A stretch of 64,000 nucleotides of DNA, from assembly GCF_946408925.1 (NCBI RefSeq), contig NZ_CAMJUE010000005.1:1-64000 (forward strand). The letters are read 5' to 3'. Source of the DNA: an uncultured Methanobrevibacter sp. GTDB taxonomy: Archaea; Methanobacteriota; Methanobacteria; Methanobacteriales; Methanobacteriaceae. The position numbers were made by a program, and so were the translations under genes. This document shows, one piece after another, positions 23,058 to 26,155 of this stretch (positions within the stretch are counted from its first letter, which is position 1; each line of letters opens with the position of its first letter). The notes under the pieces were generated by a model. The model ran no database searches and had not been told where the DNA came from. It saw only the letters and a program-made list of their open reading frames with translations.

Positions 23058-23489
23058 CTATTTACCATTCACTATTTTTTTATTTAAGTTGCGGGCAAGC
23101 AGGTAATAGTAAATGTAAAAACCGAACCAGAATATTGCGGCAAATACACATGCAATTGCAATCCAGATTACAATTGGCCCTATTCCCAAATCAACAGGCA
23201 TCCATTTTAAGTATATTGCAACTAAAAACAATACTGTCATTCCAATACCCATCTGGAAGATTATCTGAAACGGCAAAGCCAAATCCTCTTTTTCATATAT
23301 CAATCCGGTTAATGAAAAACCCCATCCTGCAACTATACAACCCAAGAACAGGTTAACAATATCAGTTCCTGAAAAAGTGATATTTTGAGGACCTGCCTGA
23401 AGAGAAATCAAAACTGCAACAAGCAGCCCTATAAAACAACCGACAAAGGCACCTAATGCCAAGCTTTCTATTATATCCGTGAATTTCAT
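23058..23489 (-). CDS. DUF3021-like four-TM membrane protein
   Basis: Four TM segments; adjacent to LytTR gene, as in bacterial LytTR-DUF3021 pairs. Confidence 0.65.
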   Translation of the reverse strand: MKFTDIIESLALGAFVGCFIGLLVAVLISLQAGPQNITFSGTDIVNLFLGCIVAGWGFSLTGLIYEKEDLALPFQIIFQMGIGMTVLFLVAIYLKWMPVDLGIGPIVIWIAIACVFAAIFWFGFYIYYYLLARNLNKKIVNGK

Positions 23490-23497
23490 TTAATCAC

Positions 23498-23938
23498 CTA
23501 CAAATCCAATGCATTTTTAAAATCAGGCAAGTATTTTCTTGAGATATTGTCCTTCAAACCATTTTTCAACTGTATAAACATCATTCCCTTAAGTGAAGGC
23601 GCAACTCTTTCAACCTTTTTCAGGTTAATTATTGTTGTTTTTGAAATTCTAACGAAATCACCTGTCAGACTCTCTTCAATTTGATACAACGGCTTTTTGA
23701 TTATGTACTCATTAGTTTGTGTAAAAACCTTCACCTGTTTTTCTTCAACCCTAAACATGAAAATATCCTTCAACTCCAGAAGAGTGATGTCAGAACCCTT
23801 TTTGACAGCCAACATGTCCTTTTGATCGTCACTTTCCAAAATATTAATCGCTTTGGATATATTGTCTGTCAGCTCATCAGTATGTATATCTGCATAAGGC
23901 TCTTCAATATCTCTTGAAACAAACAAATTTACCTTCAT
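23498..23938 (-). CDS. LytTR DNA-binding domain transcriptional regulator
   Basis: 'LELKDIFMFRVEEKQVKVFTQTNEYIIKKPLYQIEESLTGDFVRISKTTIINLKKVERV' is a LytTR pattern. Confidence 0.85.
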   Translation of the reverse strand: MKVNLFVSRDIEEPYADIHTDELTDNISKAINILESDDQKDMLAVKKGSDITLLELKDIFMFRVEEKQVKVFTQTNEYIIKKPLYQIEESLTGDFVRISKTTIINLKKVERVAPSLKGMMFIQLKNGLKDNISRKYLPDFKNALDL

Positions 23939-23941
23939 AAT

Positions 23942-24220
23942 TTAATTCCTTAATTTTTCCATTTCCTCTTGGATTTTACGTTCCCTGTAACTTTCACTAT
24001 CAAAATCATCAATGAACACATATGCCTTTAAAAAGTCAGCAATGACTCCAATACCCCAGAAAAATACCGGAAACATTACCCACCAGAACTCGGGTGAGAA
24101 TAAGCCATTGATGATGGCCAGTATTGCATTAACAATAATGTATGCTTTCAAGTTTCTATAGAATTTAATTTTTAAGTTTACCCTTTCTTCAGCTCTTGCC
24201 CTTAAATTGTCATTCATCAT
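23942..24220 (-). CDS. 2TM domain protein
   Basis: Two TM segments, 'RNLKAYIIVNAILAIINGLFSPEFWWVMFPVFFWGIGV'. Confidence 0.7.
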   Translation of the reverse strand: MMNDNLRARAEERVNLKIKFYRNLKAYIIVNAILAIINGLFSPEFWWVMFPVFFWGIGVIADFLKAYVFIDDFDSESYRERKIQEEMEKLRN

Positions 24221-24338: not shown

Positions 24339-25037
24339 CTATAATACAGCCACCAAATAATATAATATTGAAGTTACTGCCGGAACTGTCAGGTTATCTA
24401 TTCCACCATAGCTGAACGCTTCACATATTGTTGCAACCGCCGAAATCATTATAATATTTACCAGATTGAATTCAGGCATTGTACAGCCAATGGATGTGAA
24501 AACCATCCATACAAATACGCTCATTACAGTTGTAATTACAAACATAGTAAGGGAGCCTTCAAGGGATTTTGTACCACCGAAGATGGTGTATTTGACCTTA
24601 CCGAATTTCTGACCTATAAGCGCTGCAAATCCGTCACCATAAACCATTGGAACAATTGCCAGTGCCACAATCCAGATAAAGAATTTTGGATCGTTTGCCG
24701 GTGAAATGATTGCAAATACTGCAATCAGCACTGTCCATATTCCTGCATAGAAGAATAATCCCAGTGCATGACCAGATTCAGTTACGCTGTTTTCTATTTT
24801 TATCGGAGAGTATTCTGTTAGGAAGAACAGCACTATTGTAATCGGCAGTGTTAAAAACCATACCATCACCCAGGGGTCTGAGAAAAATGGCATGGCAAAT
24901 ATCATGTTACCTACCATGATATGTAGAAATTTACGTGAAACTTCAGGCCGTGTCTTTAAAACCATTTCGGCTACTACGAAAATGACTGCAACATAAACAT
25001 ATACGATGATTAATGCAAGGATATCAGAGAATATCAT
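24339..25037 (-). CDS. Polyprenol/phytol/diacylglycerol kinase-like (SEC59/DGK1/VTE5-type) membrane protein
   Basis: RPEVSRKFLHIMVGN ... YGDGFAALIGQKFGKVKYTIFGGTKSLEGSLTMF. Confidence 0.75.
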   Translation of the reverse strand: MIFSDILALIIVYVYVAVIFVVAEMVLKTRPEVSRKFLHIMVGNMIFAMPFFSDPWVMVWFLTLPITIVLFFLTEYSPIKIENSVTESGHALGLFFYAGIWTVLIAVFAIISPANDPKFFIWIVALAIVPMVYGDGFAALIGQKFGKVKYTIFGGTKSLEGSLTMFVITTVMSVFVWMVFTSIGCTMPEFNLVNIIMISAVATICEAFSYGGIDNLTVPAVTSILYYLVAVL

Positions 25038-26155
25038 CAGTCATCATACTCCCCATACTCACAACCGGCATTTTCGATTTTTACATGATCAATAAGAGTG
25101 CCGTCCTTTTTGTATAGCTTGATTTCACCCCAACCGTTTCCACCGTTCCATAGGCGGTTGTGTCTTTTGGTTCCGTTTGGTGCTTCATAGTTGAAAAGCA
25201 TCATTTCATCACGTTTACAGTAGAGTACCAATTCCATCTTGGAGTTCTTATTGCTTGCATTGATGTGCCAGGTGTTAACATCTTCGCCTTCCTCAAAGTC
25301 AAAGTCGATTTTAACAAGATTCCAGAATCTTGCAAAGTTGTATTCATACATTGTTCCTTCATAGTAGAATCCTATAAGCAGTTTACGTGGAATTTCTATA
25401 CCGAATGCCTTAGGCCTTCCCCCACCTGCTTCAAATGCAGAGTTGTTTAATTTTTTACCTGTGATTAAACTTGTAATGTTACATGAGGATATCCATAGCC
25501 ATGGTGAGGTAAAGTCTCCTCCCCAGTTCTTATCGGCATATCCATAGGATTTTTCAGGAATTACTTCATACTCTTCCCCATCAAGCCAGATTGTTCCGCT
25601 GTATTCTGTCTTGATTCCTTCAGCATGCCAGAACATTTCAAATGCATTTAATTTTCTGAAAAATGAGTTTGCACCATATCCCACATTAAAAGTGATTTTT
25701 TTGTCGATGTCCAAATCCCACATCATGTCTCCCGCATCAGACATGTATTCAGGGTGATTTTTGGCATCATCCTCTGATACTCTTGAAAAACCACTCATAT
25801 GAGTTTCTGTAAGGCTGCAGTCTCCAACTTGGATGTTGAGTTCATCGTCAGGGCAGTTGAAGTATTTCATTGAGTAAAAATTATGAATCTGTTTTGGATT
25901 TTTACCCCATGTTCCTGCCTTAATCATACAGTATGATGGTCTTTTACCTGCCTTTTGATTTTCAGGCAATTGTCCGAGTGTTGGTTCTTCTTCAGCTAAA
26001 TCAGGATTGCATACGAAGTATTCGATGAAGAATGGTTTGGGTTCGCCTGTCTTTTTATTATATGCTGTTAATGAATGCCACCACCAGTCATATCCCTTTT
26101 TGGCCAGCGGTCCCTTAAGCATAAAATAATCTCTTTTCAAATCACTTTTATTCAT
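25037..26155 (-). CDS. Tocopherol cyclase-like family protein
   Basis: SD GGAGG then MNKSDLKRDYFMLKGPLAKKGYDWWWHSL; 'YGYADKNWGGDFTSPWLWISSCN' resembles tocopherol cyclase core; overlaps next gene by 1 nt. Confidence 0.7.
   Translation of the reverse strand: MNKSDLKRDYFMLKGPLAKKGYDWWWHSLTAYNKKTGEPKPFFIEYFVCNPDLAEEEPTLGQLPENQKAGKRPSYCMIKAGTWGKNPKQIHNFYSMKYFNCPDDELNIQVGDCSLTETHMSGFSRVSEDDAKNHPEYMSDAGDMMWDLDIDKKITFNVGYGANSFFRKLNAFEMFWHAEGIKTEYSGTIWLDGEEYEVIPEKSYGYADKNWGGDFTSPWLWISSCNITSLITGKKLNNSAFEAGGGRPKAFGIEIPRKLLIGFYYEGTMYEYNFARFWNLVKIDFDFEEGEDVNTWHINASNKNSKMELVLYCKRDEMMLFNYEAPNGTKRHNRLWNGGNGWGEIKLYKKDGTLIDHVKIENAGCEYGEYDD

Follow-up and report, generated by a model that had tools for sequence, protein, structure and literature searches.

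The window, by which we mean the whole stretch of 64,000 nucleotides from an uncultured Methanobrevibacter species that was analysed, contains two adjacent genes on the minus strand that overlap by 1 nt at position 25037, just where the initial annotation had placed them, and the upstream product does carry the peptide YGYADKNWGGDFTSPWLWISSCN on which that annotation relied. The genes and features discussed below are:

25037..26155, minus strand: cyclase/hydratase-like gene, first of the pair (372 aa; PF14249, AttH/CrtC/lipocalin-like fold)
25490..25549, minus strand: predicted catalytic core YGYADKNWGGDFTSPWLW with Asp208, Trp219 and Trp221
25035..25039, minus strand: TGATG stop/start overlap in the sequence, with 1 nt common to both genes
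24339..25037, minus strand: membrane kinase-like gene, second of the pair (232 aa; probable member of the CTP-transferase/dolichol-phytol kinase superfamily)
23942..24220, minus strand: gene for a 2TM-domain protein (PF13239, E 4e-22), downstream of the pair
23058..23938, minus strand: genes for a LytTR regulator and a DUF3021 membrane protein (PF04397, PF11457), downstream of the pair

The cyclase-like gene starts at the ATG at 26155, which has a GGAGG Shine-Dalgarno sequence about 7 nt upstream, and the longer version with a TTG start proposed by the ORF caller is unlikely. Its TGA stop codon (25039-25037) runs into the ATG of the kinase-like gene (25037-25035), which ends at 24339; this TGATG overlap suggests that the two genes may be translationally coupled. 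Throughout the window genus (g1, 67 genomes) the gap between the matched ends of cyclase and kinase is mostly 2 or 5 nt. The order of the 2TM gene after the pair is the same in three genomes (G008, G004 and G032), and that of the LytTR and DUF3021 genes in these and a fourth (G001). The 2TM gene, a neighbor restricted to the window genus, is outside the conserved pair. The three downstream genes (window 23058-24220), found after the pair in several genomes of the genus, could form a regulatory unit.

Family, fold and predicted active site of the two proteins

The cyclase-like protein matches PF14249 (Tocopherol_cycl) over residues 164-368 of 372 with an E-value of 8.8e-12 and a score of 45.2 bits against a curated cut-off of 26.6, so that the family-level similarity anticipated by the initial annotation is confirmed; the N-terminal half of the protein, however, scarcely matches the tocopherol cyclase model. 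When the AlphaFold model (pLDDT 89.7) was compared with PDB structures using Foldseek, all 12 matches with E<=0.001 belonged to the AttH/CrtC/kievitone hydratase group, namely AttH (2ich, E 2e-8), kievitone hydratase (7a0t/7a0q, E 1.5e-7), 25-phosphosteroid lyase (9g4c, E 3e-6), and, as the remaining ones, the Diels-Alderase CghA and a related pericyclase. Judging from this model, the protein is a two-domain double lipocalin-like beta-barrel of the tocopherol cyclase/carotenoid 1,2-hydratase/AttH fold group.

Across about 118 distinct relatives, Asp208 and Trp221 are invariant and Trp219 is missing from a single one. In a profile alignment with kievitone hydratase, YADKNWG...PWLW of the query lies against WYDRQWG...NWTW, and mutagenesis of carotenoid 1,2-hydratase (CrtC) has identified the acid D268 and the tryptophans W110, W283 and W285 (PMC12402844). 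Mapped through this alignment and the residue description in the same paper, Asp208 and Trp219/Trp221 would correspond to the acid and the tryptophan cage of CrtC. The window protein appears to share the fold, the catalytic Asp and the W-x-W arrangement with CrtC and kievitone hydratase, although identity is about 12% and the sequence match just reaches E 0.02-0.08. Considering the conservation of these residues, the alignment and the CrtC data together, hydration or cyclization at a prenyl double bond is the leading reading of its predicted activity.

With the tocopherol cyclases VTE1, SXD1 and slr1737, the window protein has in common PF14249, the Y-x-[D/E]-K-N-W-G and W-x-W core and probably the fold, but it differs from them in having Asp for Glu, an anaerobic host and no tocopherol pathway. 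Plant tocopherol cyclases carry Glu in this motif (YxEKNWG; PMC4963081), whereas the window motif is YADKNWG and Asp occupies the position in all of the approximately 118 distinct relatives. Two other genera of Methanobacteriaceae contain a classical Glu-type tocopherol cyclase-like protein (L099:7318-8301 and L101:6781-7749; motifs YLEKDWG and YMEKDWG) that is unlinked to the kinase. Tocopherol cyclase-like proteins with this motif, of unknown function, have also been reported from non-photosynthetic heterotrophic bacteria (PMC4963081); the gene studied here differs in being archaeal and joined to a kinase.

The downstream product had been named a SEC59/DGK1/VTE5-type kinase, an assignment that is weaker than stated, as the protein itself has no Pfam or NCBIfam match, and just one of 14 relatives touched PF01148 (E 0.012). 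Attempts to name it through Pfam, NCBIfam, PDB sequences or plasmid records yielded nothing usable. The top four PDB matches of its AlphaFold model (pLDDT 83.8) are all CdsA (4q2e/4q2g) with a probability of 0.95-0.99, but with E-values of 0.07-0.18 and a TM-score of about 0.4. A profile built from the kinase family hits a DUF92 fusion in its N-terminal domain (E 5.7e-28), and HHpred has placed a similar N-terminal domain of a Methanosarcina protein in SEC59 (PMC5898192). Such a fusion of a window-kinase-like domain to DUF92 (PF01940) is seen in a Lacrimispora protein (L191:694-2139). Conserved motifs include YGDG...K-x-x-EGS and D214-N215, with D135 and D214 invariant, and the Methanobrevibacter smithii copy has been listed as K18678, phytol kinase (PMC10939349). 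The predicted membrane fold, the conserved aspartates (possible metal ligands) and the similar DUF92-fusion domain may be features shared with archaeal dolichol kinase/COG0170 (arCOG01881), K18678 and CdsA, from which the window protein differs in falling below Pfam recognition. On the basis of the modeled fold and the domain fusion, what stands of the assignment is that the protein is probably a lipid kinase of the CTP-transferase type, which may depend on CTP and act on a prenol.

Distribution of the pairing and descent of its members

Among 152 genomes of the phylum, PF14249 was detected in 85-86 (85 of them over the curated cut-off), which belong to 6 of 20 genera, and the kinase was detected by profile search in 106. 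Named records that contain the same contigs place Methanobrevibacter in two genera, g1 and g9, and Methanosphaera in g12. Of the 67 genomes of g1, 63 have the kinase and 59 the cyclase, and where both are present the cyclase lies directly upstream of the kinase on the same strand in 56 of 58 g1 genomes and in 16/16 of g9, which bears out the expectation that the pairing is conserved in relatives. These counts include G098, whose gap was taken from separate inspection since the Pfam match stops early and whose kinase is split over two contigs, as well as G105, whose coordinate was approximated and which has its cyclase in two pieces and an internal TAG in the kinase. The genes flanking the pair differ between g1 and g9. 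Both genes are present but apart in G030 and G025, and the cyclase is absent and the kinase retained in G006. In G032 (L108:7295-7639) a cyclase remnant is left, namely the initial MNKSDLK plus a piece that corresponds to residues 141-190, next to an intact kinase, and in the near-complete genomes G007 and G002 (L104, L105) no cyclase was found and the kinase has thymidylate kinase and a CofH-like gene as neighbors.

The thermophilic methanogens tested have the kinase without the cyclase. Conversely, cyclases occur without a detectable kinase in Methanosphaera and in G078, with 10 such genomes outside g1 and g9 (nine of the Methanosphaera-type genus g12 and one of g6), and of 25 bacterial genomes that bear a cyclase, 23 gave no sign of the kinase, indicating that the cyclase needs no such kinase. 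In Methanosphaera-type genomes (L097:7454-10779, L098:7047-10384) genes for a MacB/FtsX permease and an ABC ATPase come next after the cyclase. Co-occurrence in bacteria could not serve as proof of coupling, the kinase being found in 2/25 genomes, in one as a DUF92 fusion.

More than 550 relatives of the cyclase were found among the matches listed, most of them from Bacillota of the gut and rumen and some from Spirochaetes, and their distribution is patchy (18/145 relatives of one Lachnospiraceae genome carry the gene). No shared neighbor was found among the hundreds of bacterial relatives examined, and a conserved operon that might name the substrate was sought without success; neighbors are scattered, for example short-chain dehydrogenase with old-yellow-enzyme, or CmpB-like proteins. 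In two loci (L161:7169-10127 and L177) the genes after the bacterial relative encode a short-chain dehydrogenase and an old-yellow-enzyme-type reductase. Plasmid records gave no match to the cyclase, and carriage by phages was dismissed, as the two "phage" records are bacterial-looking contigs. These records from human faeces (MT837528.1 and MT838316.1; L244, L245) encode a relative with 38-39% identity among ORFs that otherwise look bacterial chromosomal, so their bacteriophage label is probably mistaken.

Phylogenetic trees place the methanogen cyclases in two groups that branch separately among Bacillota proteins, which indicates at least two transfers. The main group adjoins Lachnospiraceae proteins, and the type B cyclases (G096, G098, G030, G025 and G009) adjoin proteins of Bacilli. 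Transfer would have been from bacteria to archaea because the bacterial diversity of the cyclase is wider.

As for the kinase, its neighbor in other genera and in basal members of g1 is thymidylate kinase, joined in distant genera by UbiA and myo-inositol-1-phosphate synthase, an ancestral context that fits lipid synthesis. In G096, a type B cyclase is located directly upstream of the native kinase-thymidylate kinase pair. In most genomes of g1 and g9, a main-type cyclase precedes a kinase belonging to a single clade that spans both genera (support 98/95 to 100/97). The pyrG tree keeps g1 and g9 each together, with which the kinase tree is incongruent, and forcing the g1 kinases together was rejected by the AU test (p 0.001, a value that is optimistic because the test was picked after the kinase tree had been seen). 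Considering that nearly every g1 and g9 genome has just one such kinase and that the trees are incongruent, the cassette seemingly replaced the native kinase. On the simplest reading of these sequence data, a cyclase-kinase cassette passed from one genus to another and displaced the native kinase, and the juxtaposition arose more than once. Two unrelated cyclase lineages have been joined to two different kinase lineages, with the cyclase in front both times. Such repeated and conserved juxtaposition supports functional coupling, and the pairing is probably functional. Weighing against a tight coupling are the cyclases of Methanosphaera, of G078 and of most of the bacterial genomes, which had no detectable kinase, and the separated genes of G030 and G025. 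No paper on the pairing was found in the searches made of open-access text; "tocopherol cyclase" and "dolichol kinase" are separate entries in the annotation of Methanobrevibacter ruminantium (PMC7772410).

A candidate isoprenoid-lipid modification in rumen methanogens

The explanation that we favor, at roughly even odds, is a laterally acquired, acid-catalyzed hydratase or cyclase for a prenyl chain that became coupled in rumen methanogens to an archaeal prenol kinase. Gut methanogens would have acquired the cyclase from Bacillota at least twice. Asp208 would probably protonate a C=C bond of the prenyl chain and Trp219/Trp221 would stabilize the resulting cation, which would then be captured either by water (hydration) or by an internal nucleophile (ring closure). 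The archaeal membrane kinase probably forms prenyl phosphates or recycles them. Translation in Methanobrevibacter would be joint, and both proteins would probably share one isoprenoid lipid as their target, with the kinase either feeding the hydratase/cyclase or trapping its product. The data show homology, the fold assignment, the conserved residues, a juxtaposition that is conserved and recurrent, and the incongruent trees; the chemistry, the CTP dependence, the order of steps and the substrate are all inferred here.

The main competing explanation, which we consider rather unlikely, is that the roles of the two proteins are unrelated: the kinase would be a housekeeping archaeal polyprenol kinase, the cyclase would detoxify or hydrate a dietary lipid (a plant terpenoid, sterol or unsaturated fatty acid), and their adjacency would reflect promoter convenience and hitchhiking. 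The kinase of cyclase-free thermophilic methanogens, its persistence where the cyclase was lost (G006) or broken (G032), the stand-alone cyclases of bacteria, the association with an ABC transporter in Methanosphaera and the patchy, accessory-like distribution in Bacillota would all be expected under this explanation, but it does not readily account for two cyclase lineages lying upstream of two kinase lineages in the same order and on the same strand, the genes overlapping at stop and start or lying a few nucleotides apart in most of g1. There is a slim chance that an isoprenoid (perhaps tertiary) alcohol is phosphorylated by the kinase and that the AttH/CrtC-fold protein eliminates the phosphate to give an alkene. 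A precedent exists in Sterolibacterium, where 25-hydroxysteroids undergo a two-step ATP-dependent dehydration by a kinase-lyase tandem (PMC8449060); there an alcohol kinase is partnered by an enzyme that has the fold of the window cyclase, and the 12 significant fold matches include structures of 25-phosphosteroid lyase. However, no lyase candidate lies near the kinase gene in that organism (PMC8449060), AttH and the hydratases outscore the lyase, and bacteria and Methanosphaera hold the lyase-like protein without such a kinase.

Far less credible is the route modeled on VTE5 and VTE1 that the initial annotation had in mind, in which a phytol kinase would activate phytol from the diet and ring closure on a prenylquinol, catalyzed by the cyclase, would give a chromanol. 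PF14249 similarity, the K18678 listing of the M. smithii kinase (PMC10939349) and the host-associated life of these methanogens would agree with it, but the window's own genome, which is about 88% complete, has no match to TIGR01263 (HPPD) and a single UbiA, with no second one (homogentisate prenyltransferase) found, and the vitamin-E (tocopherol) pathway was rejected on these grounds. The analogy is further contradicted by the presence of Asp where YxEKNWG has Glu, the kinase being older than the cyclase in the order, the stand-alone origin of the cyclase in Bacillota and the kinase-free cyclase of Methanosphaera. Equally improbable is that the cyclase-like protein is a non-catalytic calycin-type lipid carrier or sensor, as its lipocalin-like fold might allow, since the acid and tryptophans are invariant at the catalytic positions.

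A known fold family is here joined to an archaeal lipid kinase, and the analogy to vitamin E is unsupported; the broader idea of a lipid-modifying pathway in a methanogen is plausible, with the pairing conserved. That a bacterial enzyme was acquired at least twice and twice set directly before the recipient's own lipid-alcohol kinase suggests that the two proteins act jointly on an isoprenoid lipid. We tentatively propose, as a possibility somewhat short of even, a two-enzyme modification in rumen methanogens in which the bacterial-derived hydratase/cyclase and the archaeal prenol kinase act on a prenyl chain to yield a prenol, lipid carrier or archaeol in hydroxylated or cyclized form that would be tied to rumen life. 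If the coupling is true, the main methane producers of the rumen would carry a lipid-modifying step that came from neighboring bacteria and is absent in the thermophilic methanogens tested.
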